Of a stretch of 41,934 bases of DNA, positions 3,231-7,869 are shown in pieces (positions within the stretch are counted from its first letter, which is position 1; each line of letters opens with the position of its first letter). Under the pieces are notes generated by a model. The model made no database searches. It saw only the letters and a list, made by a program, of their open reading frames with translations, and was not told where the DNA came from. This DNA comes from Myxococcaceae bacterium (GTDB lineage Bacteria; Myxococcota; Myxococcia; Myxococcales; Myxococcaceae). Position numbers and translations under genes: made by a program. The DNA is taken from NCBI GenBank assembly GCA_025459425.1, contig JALOQF010000093.1, positions 1-41,934 on the forward strand, in the 5' to 3' direction.

Positions 3231-4412
3231 TCAGCGGAGCGCCGTGGCGAGGAGCCCCGCCTCGGCCGCAATCTCGTTGCCCGCGACCCCGAGTCGCGCG
3301 GCGGTGGCGGCGAACTGCCGGGCCAGCGTCTTCTGGCCGGCCTTGAGGTGGGCGAGCGCGAGGTTGAGCTGAACGGTGGCCGAGGCGCGACCGGACTCGA
3401 CCTCGAGCAGGCCGGTGGCCTCCTTCACGTCGCGTGGTGTGCCTGCTTCGAGCAGCAGGACGGCGAGGTTGTTCCGCGGAGCCCACTCGGTCGGCGCCTG
3501 CTCGACGGCACGCCTGTAGAACGAGATGGCCTTCTCCTTCTGCTTCACGGCCTCGAAGACGATGCCGAGCTGATGAAGCGCCTTCCAGCTCCTGGGGTCG
3601 AGCGCGAGTGCCTTCTCGGCGGCCGCGCGCGCCTCGTCGAGATGGAGGCGCGCGGTTTCGATCACCGCGAGGGAGAGAAGAAACTCGGCGCAGTCCGGCT
3701 GGCGACGAACGGCTTCCCGTGCGTGCTTGAGGGCCGTGGCGAGGTCCTTCCGCTGCATCGCGAGCGCGCCGCGCTTGGACTCGAAGAGCCCCTGGCTGGG
3801 GAACACCTTCGAGCCGGCCTCGAGGACCTCGTCGGCCAGGCTGTGTTCTCCGGCCGTGACGAGCAGATCCGCGAGTTCGGTGACGAAGAACGGGTTGGCG
3901 ACGTTCTGTTCGATGCAGCGCAGGTAGGTGTTGGCCGCGCGTCGGGCGTGGCCAAGCTTCGCGAGGGTCTGGGCCCAGGCGGCGAGCACGGCGACGTTGT
4001 CGGGCGCGAGCTCGGCCGCGCGCTCGAAGGCGATGGCCGCTTCGACGAGACGGGCCTTCTTGAGCATCAGGCGGGCCTGGTTGAACCACGCCGGCATGAG
4101 GCCCGGAGCGAACCGGGTGGCCTGCTCGAAGTGCAGCAGCGCGGCGTCGTGCTGACCTTTCGCCTCGTGCACGAGGCCCAGCAGCATGCGCGCATAGCCA
4201 TGCTTGGGCGCACGAACGATGACCCCGTCGAGAATGGCGCGGGCGTCATCGAGCTTCTCGAGGTGCAACGCGAGCCGACCCATCATGACGTCTGGCTCGA
4301 TCGATGCTGGCTCCAGTTCTTTCGCGTGCTTGATGATGAGCGCTGCACGGTCGAAGTCGCTCTGCAGGAGGTACGTCTCAGCCTGGGTCATCAGCGCAGT
4401 CATGGCATCCAT
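3231..4412 (-). CDS. TPR repeat protein, partner of the upstream Ala/Gly-rich protein
   Basis: About 393 residues, almost entirely tetratricopeptide repeats: TPR-like helix pairs run from near the N-terminus (LLQSDFDRAALIIKHAKELEP) to the C-terminus (VQLNLALAHLKAGQKTLARQ), with the usual W/LGYAF and P spacing. There is no signal peptide or membrane segment, so it is cytoplasmic. The frame extends to a GTG at 4442 that overlaps the previous stop, but AAAGGA 9 nt upstream of ATG 4412 argues for the ATG. The gap to the upstream gene is then 26 bp, which makes this the second gene of a sigma-54-type operon. By context it may be a chaperone or sorting platform for the upstream product. It is longer than a classic secretion chaperone, and TPR proteins have many roles. 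Confidence 0.85.
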   Translation of the reverse strand: MDAMTALMTQAETYLLQSDFDRAALIIKHAKELEPASIEPDVMMGRLALHLEKLDDARAILDGVIVRAPKHGYARMLLGLVHEAKGQHDAALLHFEQATRFAPGLMPAWFNQARLMLKKARLVEAAIAFERAAELAPDNVAVLAAWAQTLAKLGHARRAANTYLRCIEQNVANPFFVTELADLLVTAGEHSLADEVLEAGSKVFPSQGLFESKRGALAMQRKDLATALKHAREAVRRQPDCAEFLLSLAVIETARLHLDEARAAAEKALALDPRSWKALHQLGIVFEAVKQKEKAISFYRRAVEQAPTEWAPRNNLAVLLLEAGTPRDVKEATGLLEVESGRASATVQLNLALAHLKAGQKTLARQFAATAARLGVAGNEIAAEAGLLATALR

Positions 4413-4438
4413 GGTCGTCAGTCCTTTCAGAGCGGAGT

Positions 4439-5908
4439 TCACGTGAGCACCGAGCGGCCTGCGCGGCTGCCGAGCTTCGAGATGTCATTCTTGATGTTCT
4501 TTTCCATCCGGCGGCTGTCGGCTTCCTGAATCGCGTCACGTTCGCGCTGATCCTTCCCCTCGAGAGCCGGGTCGTCTCGTTTCGTGCGAGACGTGGTTTC
4601 CTCCACGTCCTTGCCGTTGCCCCCCAGGAAGTCGTGCGAGGCGTACTTCTCGAGCTTCTTTGCCACGAACGGCGTGGCGGCCTTGACGAAGCTGGCCACG
4701 CCAGCAGCTGCAGCCTGTCCGGCACTGCCAGGAGGCGCATCCATGGCGACCTGCTGGAAGATTCCGGCGACCAAGCCACCCAGGGCGTTGAAGTCGATCG
4801 AGAGGTTGAAGTTCGCGCCGAGTCCCACGGCCGCAGCGATGCCCGCGAAGCCCTTCACGTTGAGCTTCCCGTCCTTGAATGAGAAGTCCCAGCCGTACTC
4901 GACACCGGCTCCGGCGCGGGCGTCGATACCTACGTCCAGCTTGAAGGGGCCCGTCCCGATGGTGGCGCTGGCTCCGGCCCTCGCGCCAGCGAAAGCACGG
5001 GCACCCGCCTTCCCGACGATTTCAGGCGGCGCGAACGTCGCGGTGGCTTCGATGTCAGCGCTGGCGCCCGTTCCTGCCACGGCGTACGCGCCGGCGTTGG
5101 CACCTGCGGTCCACTCGTAGTCGCCAAGCTTCACGATGGGAGCGGACTCCGCACACACCCGCGCATTGGCGCCGGCCTCAGCGCCCGCAGCAGCCGCCGC
5201 CTTCGTTGTCAGTCCCGACTGGTTGACTGTGGCCGAGCCTTCGGCAGTCCCGTACACCGTGGCGTAGGCGTTGGCCTCTCCGCTCACCGACCCCGCGGAC
5301 CCGTGCAGCTCTCCCCGCGCACTCGCTTCGGCGCGCAGCTCGGCGGCTGCTTTGCCTTTGGCCGTGACACCATCCGGACCGACCGTGACGCTGCCATCGG
5401 CACGAGCGCCTGCGCTGAGGCGAGCCTTCAGACTGCCACTTCCTCCGTTCTTCTCGTCACCGAAGCTGCCGCTGAGTTCACGCTCAAGTTCGACCTCTTC
5501 TTTGACCGACCCGCTGAGAAGCTCGAGCTCATTGCCTTTCATCTTCGGCTGAAAGGCGTTCGGTGCAGCGGGGGCACCGGGCGGCTGCCCTTGCGCGCCC
5601 TGGGGCGGGGGTTGCGCCGTGCCAGCGAATTGGGCGACCTTTCCAAAGGCTTGCGCCAGGAGGATGAATGGGCCGACGAAAGGAATGAGGCCTAAAAGAA
5701 GCTTGGGCGCCTCCGAGCCAAGGGCCTGCGGAAGAGAAGGTGCGCCAGGCGCGCTCAGGACTGCCTGAGCGGCGTGGACCATGAGCTGGTGAGACTGAGC
5801 GGAGTCGATGGTTGCGGGGCGCGCACGGTCGGGAACGGCCGAGGGCTCGACGGGCTGAGAGGCGTAGCGGGTAGAGGCGGGAGGCGGACTGCCGATCGTG
5901 TTGCTCAT
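4439..5908 (-). CDS. Ala/Gly-rich repetitive putative exported/translocator-like protein
   Basis: 489 residues, unrecognised family. Residues 1-60 are Ser/Pro/Ala-rich and disordered with no Sec signal. A strongly hydrophobic segment lies at about 70-88 (LLLGLIPFVGPFILLAQAF), then a Pro/Gln linker, an acidic Glu-rich segment (about 126-150), and about 210 residues of alternating small residues (repeated ASA, GAEAGANA, YATVYGTAEG types) that look like a beta-strand-rich array. A second hydrophobic patch (FNALGGLVAGIFQQVA) and a charged helical tail rich in Lys/Arg/Asp follow. ATG 5908 has AAGGAG 5 nt upstream (positions 5914-5919), and a -24/-12 promoter lies just before it. A hydrophobic hairpin plus a TPR partner resembles type III translocators (YopB/SctE-like); a pore-forming or toxin-like protein is the alternative. 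Codon GC is lower than in neighbouring genes. Confidence 0.8.
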   Translation of the reverse strand: MSNTIGSPPPASTRYASQPVEPSAVPDRARPATIDSAQSHQLMVHAAQAVLSAPGAPSLPQALGSEAPKLLLGLIPFVGPFILLAQAFGKVAQFAGTAQPPPQGAQGQPPGAPAAPNAFQPKMKGNELELLSGSVKEEVELERELSGSFGDEKNGGSGSLKARLSAGARADGSVTVGPDGVTAKGKAAAELRAEASARGELHGSAGSVSGEANAYATVYGTAEGSATVNQSGLTTKAAAAAGAEAGANARVCAESAPIVKLGDYEWTAGANAGAYAVAGTGASADIEATATFAPPEIVGKAGARAFAGARAGASATIGTGPFKLDVGIDARAGAGVEYGWDFSFKDGKLNVKGFAGIAAAVGLGANFNLSIDFNALGGLVAGIFQQVAMDAPPGSAGQAAAAGVASFVKAATPFVAKKLEKYASHDFLGGNGKDVEETTSRTKRDDPALEGKDQRERDAIQEADSRRMEKNIKNDISKLGSRAGRSVLT

Positions 5909-5941
5909 TGTGGCTCCTTGGACGAGGGGTAGGGCCGCTAG

Positions 5942-5957
5942 AGCGAGGTCAGTGCCA
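5942..5957 (-). promoter_or_regulatory. Sigma-54 (-24/-12) promoter for the Ala/Gly-rich protein operon
   Basis: On the minus strand the sequence reads TGGCAC-TGACC-TCGCT, matching the TGGCAC-N5-TTGCW consensus with one mismatch and with exact GG-N10-GC spacing. The predicted transcription start is near 5931, leaving a leader of about 23 nt that contains the AAGGAG ribosome-binding site before ATG 5908. Confidence 0.65.
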
Positions 5958-6023
5958 GTTGTTGTTGGCCAATAAGATCAAGCCCTTGGTGCGGCCCTGC
6001 AAGGCTAAGTCTCCGGCTCCAGA

Positions 6024-6040
6024 CGGCCGACAACCGGCCG
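6024..6040. promoter_or_regulatory. Double CGGCCG element, candidate activator (enhancer-binding protein) site
   Basis: Two identical self-palindromic hexamers, CGGCCG, are separated by ACAAC, an 11-bp repeat (one helical turn). Near-symmetric flanks (gac on the left, gtc on the right after a 1-nt offset) extend the dyad. The centre lies about 100 bp upstream of the predicted minus-strand start and about 91 bp upstream of the plus-strand start, the usual distance for an activator of sigma-54 promoters. Confidence 0.5.
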
Positions 6041-6096
6041 CGTCTCTGTTTGCGGACCTTGACTCAGAAACCGTTGAGATCAGTTGCAGCGCCGAT

Positions 6097-6112
6097 TGGC
6101 AGGCGGTCTGCA
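6097..6112 (+). promoter_or_regulatory. Sigma-54 (-24/-12) promoter for the EF-hand-repeat protein
   Basis: TGGCAG-GCGGT-CTGCA matches TGGCAC-N5-TTGCW with two mismatches and exact GG-N10-GC spacing (GG at 6098-6099, GC at 6110-6111). The predicted start is near 6123, giving a leader of about 39 nt with AAGGA at 6150-6154 before ATG 6162. It mirrors the promoter on the other strand. Confidence 0.6.
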
Positions 6113-6161
6113 CGGGGCCCCGTCACCCGGCACTCTCGCCGCTGCCCACAAGGAACTCCCA

Positions 6162-7418
6162 ATGAGCAAGATTCAACCGAACACCACGCCGACTGGAATG
6201 AGCAATGTCACAGGTCAGGGCCCCGATGAGATCAAGGCTCTTCGACCGCTGAAGAGCGTTGGCCTCGACCAGAATGTCCAAGAGCGTCTTCTCATGAGCC
6301 CGCGCCTGAAAGACGAACGCTTCGCTGCGTCGCTGTACTTGAACGTCGCCGCCGAGACCGGTCACGGCGCTTCGAACTCGGCAGCCGCGACCCAGGAGAT
6401 GAACAAGAACCTCAATTCGCTGTTCAGCTCACCGGCGGCCAGCGACGGTGTTCTTTCCTGGAGTGAAGTGGTTGACATGGCGACTCGCCAGGGTGACCCC
6501 GCTGCGAAGTGGCTGATGGATAATCGAGCCTTCTTCAACGAACTGCCGACCAAGGCTGGGAAGCATGGGGCGGTTGGTCTTGATGTCGCGTCTATCCAGA
6601 AGCGGCTCTCCGAGGGAACCGTTACACCACCCGCGACGAAACGAGCCGAAGGCGGTGGGCAGGACGCCGCGCCTGTCAAGGACCCTCGCCAGGAAGCGCT
6701 CGATACGAACGCTCAGATCGAGCGAGAGAACAAGGAACTCGACAAGCAGATCAAGGAGAAGACGGACATCAAGGAGGCCCTCCTGAAGGTGACGACTCAT
6801 GGTCTGGCGGGTGACTCCTATCTTTCGAAGCAGGAGCTGCTGGACCTGCTTCAGTCGACCGACGATGGACAGCGCAAGGCGGCGGAGATCCTCCTCAAGA
6901 ACTGGGACAGGCTTCCCGTTCCAAAGTACCGCGACTGGGGCGGTGGCATGAATGCCAACGAGATGCGCGCGGCTGCGATGACCATCGCTGGCGAGGTCGA
7001 CGCGCTCACCGCTCGAAAGCGTGAACCCGTGCCCGTGCCGGGACCTCAGAGTTCCTCAGCGCCTTCCGTGGGGCAGCCCAACCCGGGTGGCAATGCGGCT
7101 CCCCCGACAGGCCCCGGAGGGTCCTCGCCACCCGTGGCGGACCTCCCGCCGACGCAAGTGCCTCACAAAGAGATCAGCGGAACTGGTCCCGAGCGTCTGG
7201 GTCAGGTTTGTGACAATTTGTCCGCGCAGATCGATGCGCTCATCAAGGAAGCAGAAATGCACCCCGAGAAGGCGCAGTCGATCATGGCAAAGGTCACGAA
7301 GTTGACCAATCAGATGCAGATGCTGAGTAATCTTATGAATCAAATCTTCACAATGCAGTCGAATCTCTCCAAGCTCTTTAGTGAGATGTCGATGACGTCG
7401 ATCCGCAACATGCGCTGA
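6162..7418 (+). CDS. Putative exported protein with two EF-hand-like repeats and helical C-terminus (HrpF/NopX-like?)
   Basis: 418 residues. ATG 6162 is chosen because AAGGA sits 7 nt upstream and the sigma-54 promoter fits; in-frame codons upstream of it look non-coding. The N-terminus is Thr/Ser/Pro/Asn-rich without a Sec signal. Two imperfect repeats are visible, at about 95-125 (DGVLSWSEVVDMATRQGD, then AAKWLMDN) and 218-250 (DSYLSKQELLDLLQSTDDGQ, then KAAEILLKNWDRL), each followed by a second Gly/Asp-containing segment. This pattern of calcium-loop-like segments followed by a helix recalls HrpF/NopX translocators (family knowledge, not a search result). Coiled coils are predicted at about 175-210 and 345-410; the last 45 residues are rich in Met, Gln, Asn and Leu. 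A Pro-rich linker spans about 289-335. GC is visibly lower than in neighbours. A TPR chaperone-like gene follows after 13 bp. Confidence 0.85.
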   Translation: MSKIQPNTTPTGMSNVTGQGPDEIKALRPLKSVGLDQNVQERLLMSPRLKDERFAASLYLNVAAETGHGASNSAAATQEMNKNLNSLFSSPAASDGVLSWSEVVDMATRQGDPAAKWLMDNRAFFNELPTKAGKHGAVGLDVASIQKRLSEGTVTPPATKRAEGGGQDAAPVKDPRQEALDTNAQIERENKELDKQIKEKTDIKEALLKVTTHGLAGDSYLSKQELLDLLQSTDDGQRKAAEILLKNWDRLPVPKYRDWGGGMNANEMRAAAMTIAGEVDALTARKREPVPVPGPQSSSAPSVGQPNPGGNAAPPTGPGGSSPPVADLPPTQVPHKEISGTGPERLGQVCDNLSAQIDALIKEAEMHPEKAQSIMAKVTKLTNQMQMLSNLMNQIFTMQSNLSKLFSEMSMTSIRNMR

Positions 7419-7431
7419 CCCGAGGCCCACC

Positions 7432-7869
7432 ATGCGAATCCAACTCAAGAACCTGATGGGGCTCGACGGCACGCCCACCTTCGCGCAGACCTTCGGCATC
7501 ACCTTCGACAACAGCGTGCAGTGGGCGGAGCAGGGGCTCGAGCTCGCCCGCGACGGCAAGCTCGACGAGGCCCGCGTCATCCTCGAGGGGCTCGTCACCC
7601 TCAACCCGCGCAGCCCCGCCTACTGGCACGCGCTCGGGTGCGTGTACCAGCAGCAGGAGCTCTTCGACGACGCCATTCAGGCGTTCGACCAGGCCACCAC
7701 CCGCGACCGGCAGAACGTCGACGCGTGGCTCCGCCTCGGCACCGTGAAGCTCAAGAAGGGCGACCGGGACGGCCTCGTCGCCCTCAAGCAGGTGCTCGAC
7801 GACACCCGCGCCGGCAGCGCCGAGTACGTCGCCAGGGCCCGCGCCATCCTCGCGTCAGTGAAGCACTGA
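7432..7869 (+). CDS. SycD/LcrH-like TPR protein (putative class II secretion chaperone)
   Basis: 145 residues with three consecutive TPRs at about 30-130: AEQGLELARDGKLDEARVIL, then the PRSPAYWHALGCVYQQQELF region, then a third in VDAWLRLGTVKLKKGDR. The size, the three-TPR core and the sequence flavour (a small-residue-rich first repeat, YWHALG in the second) match the class II chaperones that hold type III translocators in the cytoplasm. No signal peptide. It starts 13 bp after the EF-hand-repeat protein, its likely client, and the mirror operon also ends in a TPR gene. The 3' end overlaps the convergent M48 protease gene by 15 bp. A generic TPR adaptor is the alternative. Confidence 0.82.
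   Translation: MRIQLKNLMGLDGTPTFAQTFGITFDNSVQWAEQGLELARDGKLDEARVILEGLVTLNPRSPAYWHALGCVYQQQELFDDAIQAFDQATTRDRQNVDAWLRLGTVKLKKGDRDGLVALKQVLDDTRAGSAEYVARARAILASVKH

Follow-up and report, generated by a model that had tools for sequence, protein, structure and literature searches.

Does the divergent four-gene locus at positions 3,231 to 7,869 of a 41,934-nucleotide contig from a Myxococcaceae bacterium (JALOQF010000093.1 of assembly GCA_025459425.1; the whole contig is called the window below) supply parts to a type III secretion system encoded elsewhere in the genome? An earlier note on this DNA had proposed that it might, reading the locus as two mirror-image halves, each a large, putatively exported protein followed by a tetratricopeptide repeat (TPR) protein, that could make up a translocator or effector module. 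That proposal is supported for the right half, with its repeats, needle-like tail, LcrH-like TPR protein and apparatus genes elsewhere in the genome, but not for the left half. At a rough probability of 0.6, we consider the right half to be an unlinked substrate/chaperone pair of a short-locus, non-flagellar type III system, in which the large protein, P418, would be an exported axial or translocator subunit that docks on a divergent needle. P418 (6162–7418, plus strand; 418 amino acids, aa) is translocator-like, with a variable N-terminus, a NolX/HrpF-type repeat and a needle-like C-terminal hairpin, and a longer reading from a TTG start at 6084 is possible. It is followed after 13 bases by the gene of an LcrH/SycD-like TPR protein of 145 aa (7432–7869, plus strand).

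Passages of Abby and Rocha (2012; PMC3459982) describe myxobacterial type III loci of two kinds, long and short, from which SctF, the tip and the translocon are absent, SctF having been lost. For the T3SS* of Myxococcus xanthus, passages of PMC12075869, PMC10433427 and PMC10849154 state that needle and translocon are lacking, and the passages drawn on from these four papers report no secretin for myxobacterial systems. Our literature search returned no earlier report tying Myxococcus to NolX; Myxococc- combined with SctF returned only PMC3459982, and with HrpF one paper, which its title and the start of its abstract mark as unrelated.

The needle-like tail, the repeat and the TPR partner of P418

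AlphaFold predicts that P418 ends in a long hairpin of two helices (residues 342–366 and 368–417, pLDDT 75–90 by blocks), within a model of mean pLDDT 68.6 in which 115 of the 418 residues fall below 50. This needle-like domain (residues ~341–418, positions 7182–7415, plus strand), placed by profile matches to SctF-like proteins and by the model, has in the prediction the helical hairpin of ~80 residues expected of an SctF needle. Using a profile built on the C-terminal ~100 residues in 39 P418 sequences, we searched the reading frames of type III regions, and the top five matches were to a protein of 148–194 aa in five genomes (E 8.1e-5 to 0.012), with both C-terminal ends aligned. The gene of this SctF-like protein lies directly before an inner-rod-like and an SctJ-like gene in four of the five loci (L066, L071, L072 and L079); in genome G034 (L071) PF17001 picks up the rod (E 2e-4) and TIGR02544 the SctJ protein (E 2.7e-39), and in the fifth locus, L065, the gene list has an opposite-strand frame at the inner-rod/SctJ position. 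Because it directly precedes the inner-rod and SctJ genes, the putative needle gene of the short locus sits at the position expected of one. The long locus encodes a related SctF-like protein (L121 8709–9278; M. xanthus L162 9804–10370), followed by a TPR gene, with three reading frames between the SctF-like gene and SctI. M. xanthus AM003 has SctF-like proteins in both of its loci (L162, and L163 12483–12941), and in its short locus the gene also adjoins SctI/SctJ. By gene content, we take the L162 locus to be mxan_2434-2464, the one called needle-less.

Profile–profile comparison aligned the P418 tail with five short-locus SctF-like proteins at 81% probability, with ten SctF-like proteins (8 short, 2 long) at 88% (score 38.3) and with five small long-locus proteins at 96% (score 48.0), and it aligned the SctF-like group with the small long-locus proteins at 96.5% (score 55.5). 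Controls for the P418 tail scored no higher than 15.9 over 100 column shuffles, 14.6 with the reversed profile and 11.6 with the rod family. When the tail profile was searched against 99 genomes, 65 rows were set aside as P418 and the other 85 were tabulated. Among these matches listed, 55 of the 85 extend to the profile's C-terminal end; of the 55, 40 lie within 25 kb of an SctV/FlhA gene (14 of the remainder are on contigs without one and 1 is far from it), whereas none of the 30 internal, coiled-coil-type matches listed is near such a gene. On the strength of its sequence, the P418 tail is homologous to the SctF-like protein of both myxobacterial type III loci.

The connection onward to known needles runs through the Pfam model PF09392 (T3SS_needle_F), which is matched by four of ten SctF-like proteins (E limit 1; best 0.017) and by four of ten further needle-tailed proteins (best E 0.0054, 17.3 bits), all of them below its curated cut-off of 29.4 bits; it was not among the 25 families listed in the Pfam scan of P418's own C-terminus. 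With the myxobacterial SctF-like proteins as intermediates, homology connects the P418 hairpin with the needle model's C-terminal portion. Unlike SctF, P418 has ~340 extra N-terminal residues and is encoded outside the apparatus operon, where its gene does not adjoin sctI or sctJ. Against 177,635 Protein Data Bank (PDB) sequences, the top match of the small-protein profile was 7y6c_F (E 0.0032), a 43-residue chain labelled needle-protein co-chaperone, and profiles A3 and A8 gave no needle match there. A direct sequence tie between the P418 C-terminus and solved needles was rejected as unconvincing, with coiled coils dominating the matches and a PrgI-SipD fusion at rank 23 (E 0.0049), and a Pfam scan of isolated needle-like C-terminal domains was discarded as coiled-coil noise.

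Needle-like proteins also turned up in other settings. Identical copies of one of 72–77 aa occur in the long loci of G066 (three copies, L107 9884–11122), G080 (three exact copies and two in longer reading frames, L108 4461–8355) and G034 (two copies on the strand opposite to SctV, L068 10251–12890). The genome of the window encodes a further SctF-like protein (L165 5955–6485; A8 profile, E 1.7e-8) on contig C425, where no other type III gene was seen.

The second feature of P418 is an EF-hand-like repeat. PF05819 (NolX) is matched by 16 of 30 members of the P418 family (Pfam, E limit 0.1; best E 1.8e-12) and PF16937 (HrpK1/HrpF translocator) by 8 of 30 (best E 4.3e-8); scanned singly, five of ten members match NolX at E ≤0.01, and two of the ten singly scanned orthologues exceed its cut-off (32.9 and 27.1 against 26.1 bits). 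The NolX match covers the EF-hand-like repeat block only (e.g., profile positions 193–253 of 436), with no full-length NolX/HrpF match in the family, and because of this we treat P418 as sharing the repeat and do not file it as a NolX/HrpF member. P418 resembles NolX/NopX and HrpF/HrpK1 in this block and in its type III context, and it differs from them in its needle-like hairpin, in lying unlinked to apparatus genes and in having an LcrH-like TPR partner. For the window protein taken alone, neither Pfam nor the NolX-repeat profile finds the repeat. Its genus profile, aligned by hhalign with the repeat profile of six orthologues, scores 37.0 over residues ~217–262 (positions 6810–6947, plus strand), against at most 18.1 for 60 shuffles and 13.2 for the reversed control, and AlphaFold models the region as helices and two short strands in a strand-helix-helix-strand pattern (pLDDT 60–94 by blocks of ten). 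The HrpF/NopX-like repeats that the earlier note had read in this protein are thus present in 16 of the 30 family members and in the genus profile, but not detectable in the window P418 by itself.

The first 100 residues of P418 have pLDDT values of 34–60 by blocks of ten, disorder-like, in agreement with the disordered N-terminus proposed earlier; that the N-termini of the large proteins have no signal peptide is a call made by eye. Foldseek with the whole P418 model returned nothing at E ≤0.001, where the absence of a family is not conclusive. For the C-terminal hairpin, 6 of the 50 VIA-align rows were type III secretion entries, a weak sign when taken alone. Separately, G034 encodes a stand-alone 318-aa protein with two P418-like repeats (L081 611–1567; PF16937 E 1.2e-4, PF05819 E 3.9e-4) within ~25 kb of short-locus genes, and no needle-like tail was found in this protein.

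Both TPR genes of the window match TPR families in Pfam. For the 145-aa protein the best NCBIfam match is TIGR02552 (LcrH_SycD, E 2.8e-12), and the same family is the best NCBIfam match in six of six other P418-adjacent TPR proteins, always below the curated cut-off. The assignment to the SycD/LcrH chaperone class therefore holds as the best match, but at 46.5 bits the window protein falls short of that cut-off (104.8 bits). Like the class II chaperones LcrH/SycD, it is a small TPR protein encoded beside a translocator-like gene, adjoining P418 in the 38 of 44 and 6 of 6 loci described below; known here from its sequence, it is likely the chaperone of P418. In the long locus of G034, a DUF1521 protein (PF07481, E 2.2e-13) likewise precedes a TPR protein whose best match is LcrH_SycD, at 70.2 bits (L068 10739–12477).

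Co-occurrence with the short type III locus and conservation of the site

A tree of 20 SctV/FlhA sequences separates into flagellar, long-locus and short-locus clades, and therefore matches to FHIPEP could be sorted by score; the names "long" and "short" for the two non-flagellar clades follow the 2012 paper (PMC3459982), by gene content. In the sample of 99 genomes, with P418 called at E ≤1e-3 and partial short-locus SctV matches counted, P418 is found in 61 of 68 genomes with short-locus SctV and in 4 of 31 without it (61/7/4/27; Fisher p 8e-14, with kinship ignored). The four P418-positive genomes without short-locus SctV are incomplete assemblies. Leaving out the 17 genomes that are less than 90% complete, P418 is present in 58 of 65 genomes with the short locus and in none of 17 without it. 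Homologues in genomes with no export apparatus, which the earlier note had named as a finding that would speak against it, thus did not appear among these 17 genomes of about 90% completeness or more that have no short locus. The window's own genome is one of the four. Short-locus SctV was not found in it, and its contig C154 carries a short-locus SctI and an SctF-like protein, which agrees with the proposal that an apparatus lies elsewhere in the genome. In frame, that SctI (L117 4870–5304) matches only profile positions 1–129 of 158, and its C-terminal part is out of frame, through either an assembly error or a real disruption.

P418 is also present in four genomes with only short-type SctV (G031, G103, G107 and G112), and the genome search found none in the long-locus-only genomes G022 and G086. 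Seven genomes have the short locus but no P418 (G047, G053, G054, G063, G068, G077 and G081), of which G047 and G054 have weaker P418 matches. Two further genomes count against assigning the pair to this system: G119 (85% complete) has the pair with no short-locus SctV or SctI found, and G123 has short-locus SctI with no pair at the YqgF site. On balance, the P418/TPR pair tracks the short locus.

To follow the site itself, we read 44 loci, four of them P418-matching (L006–L009) and 40 centred on YqgF (L022–L061). A large gene with a TPR gene directly after it occupies the same site in 38 of these 44 Myxococcaceae loci, and the right-hand pair is therefore more than a chance arrangement. Across the family the site lies between MltG and YqgF, on one side, and an M48 protease, all three named by resemblance. 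Three of the six pairless loci (L028, L040 and L060) have contig ends near YqgF; among the others, the pair was not found in L026 (G123), L058 (G084) belongs to a genome without an FHIPEP protein, and L059 (G022) belongs to a genome with only long-locus SctV. Outside the family, six P418 loci were read from three other families (f2, f3 and f5); all six have a P418-like gene followed by a TPR homologue, with a YqgF or MltG gene close by, on reading, in four of them (L103, L104, L106 and L110). M. xanthus AM003 carries the pair as well (L127). The left-hand protein, P489, is at the site in only nine of the 44 loci, in genera g1 and g14, which differ in the side of P489 on which YqgF lies. Because the P418/TPR pair is kept in 38 of 44 loci and in other families, and P489 in nine with a shifting YqgF side, we conclude that the right half is old and that the left half probably arrived later. 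A phage origin of the P418 locus was rejected, as a tblastn search with P418 gave nothing at E 1e-5 in 50,697 phage records. Three genomes of the same family, G053, G068 and G077, have short-type SctV and match neither YqgF nor P418.

Readings of the two halves

Starting from the homology, the conservation and the co-occurrence described above, we infer how chaperone binding, export, docking and membrane action would follow from one another. The LcrH-like TPR protein would keep P418 soluble in the cytoplasm, the short-locus export apparatus would secrete it, its needle-like hairpin would dock on or co-polymerise with the divergent needle, and its NolX/HrpF-type repeats would then face outward and contact or perforate the target envelope.

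P418 could instead be an ordinary type III effector that acts in the prey or the periplasm, with the tail serving only as an export or chaperone-recognition tag. Needle-like tails do occur on proteins with very different N-termini, such as one of the P489 type, and in the alignment family members have only 15–32% identity with the window protein. Against it, NolX/HrpF repeats are a feature of translocator families, conservation of the C-terminal domain spans ~100 residues and so is not that of a short tag, and an effector would not usually be expected at an old, fixed site; we regard this reading as unlikely. The ~76-residue hairpin with its profile homology to SctF-like proteins might also suggest that the filament of the short system is built mainly of P418, as a decorated needle. 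This we hold to be very unlikely, since the short locus has its own SctF-like protein beside SctI and SctJ, and P418 is large with long linkers of low confidence. Least probable of all is a locus unconnected with type III secretion, with P418 a coiled-coil protein and its partner a generic TPR scaffold. Many coiled-coil families do match the C-terminal domain, and the LcrH match is below its cut-off, yet this reading would have to account for the concentration of C-terminal-end matches around type III loci (the 40 of 55 against 0 of 30 among the matches listed), the shuffled controls, the NolX/HrpK1 matches and the co-occurrence.

The left half consists of P489 (4439–5908, minus strand; 489 aa, Ala/Gly-rich in its middle part), a possible type III substrate, and its partner gene TPR403 (3231–4442, minus strand), which encodes a long TPR protein of 403 aa in a reading frame that overlaps that of P489 by 4 bases. 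An intergenic region of 253 bases (5909–6161) separates the starts of P489 and P418, and this layout is as first described. The mirror image exists in the layout but not in homology: between P489 and P418, similarity does not reach significance (blastp E 1.2 at best; profile–profile probability 0.1%), and a mirror duplication was rejected on this ground, and the two TPR proteins have TPR-type similarity only (34% over 68 residues). P489 has no Pfam or NCBIfam match. A Kyte-Doolittle scan confirms the hydrophobic segment that had been noticed in it, a single strongly hydrophobic stretch at residues 70–88 (5645–5701, minus strand; mean 2.13), aligned in six of ten family members and absent from four more distant ones. 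The P489 profile matches 31 of the 99 genomes, and a gene of 395–467 aa, read as TPR, neighbours a P489-type gene in six further loci; for TPR403, and for the single protein of this kind that was scanned (L095), general TPR models match best. On contig C212 of the window's genome, a P489-type protein (L096 3381–5381), with a 435-aa gene behind it that reads as TPR, has a needle-like C-terminal domain (A8 profile E 2.3e-6; PF09392 E 0.0086), which suggests, short of proof, that proteins of this type can act as type III passengers. The window P489 has no needle-like tail, and profile comparison gave no link to the needle-like family, so a tie of this protein to that family was rejected.

Taken as one module, the two halves would have P489 as a second translocator working with P418. 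The two are divergent neighbours in two genera, P489 has its hydrophobic segment, and the C212 protein provides a needle-tailed relative. Set against this are the occurrence of P489 in nine of 44 loci where the P418 pair is in 38, the different sides of YqgF, its lack of similarity to P418 or the needle-like family and the presence of P489-domain proteins at other sites, also in G022, a genome in which no P418 turned up; we think a joint module quite unlikely. With P489 a separate family, unrelated to P418 and seldom at the site, the paired mirror module is not supported as a single functional unit. The type III link of the left half is weak, running through that single needle-tailed relative, and the left half is a separate module, in which P489 may be a further type III substrate paired with a TPR partner of its own.

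Significance for myxobacterial type III systems

FlgK, FlgL and FliD, the flagellar hook-associated proteins, carry a variable outward domain on a conserved polymerisation domain and have a dedicated chaperone. The likeness of P418 to them would lie in mode of action only, its hairpin docking on the needle in the way that they dock on flagellin, and we do not claim homology.

Our preferred reading, in which the right half is an exported pair of the short system, relates to the published descriptions of myxobacterial systems in two ways, as far as the passages cited from PMC3459982 and the M. xanthus papers go. The P418 pair co-occurs with the locus that we take to be their short one. In contrast to systems described as having neither needle nor translocon, our results point to an unlinked translocator-like protein and, in both loci, to needle-like proteins of divergent sequence. 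A wider proposal, which we advance tentatively and hold slightly short of even odds, is that the "needle-less" myxobacterial systems have both needles and a translocon: the divergent SctF-type proteins of both loci would form the needles, the P418/TPR pair would be the missing tip or translocator, and the hairpin would be a transferable docking tail on varied passengers (P418 and a P489-type protein), giving a customisable prey-killing needle.

Concrete candidate genes for a needle and a translocator can now be named, including in M. xanthus, which makes the question of how myxobacterial systems reach their prey directly testable. The result also has a bearing on the fate of the needle, lost or retained, in the earliest-branching injectisomes, and the myxobacterial machines may not be missing the parts that they were thought to lack.

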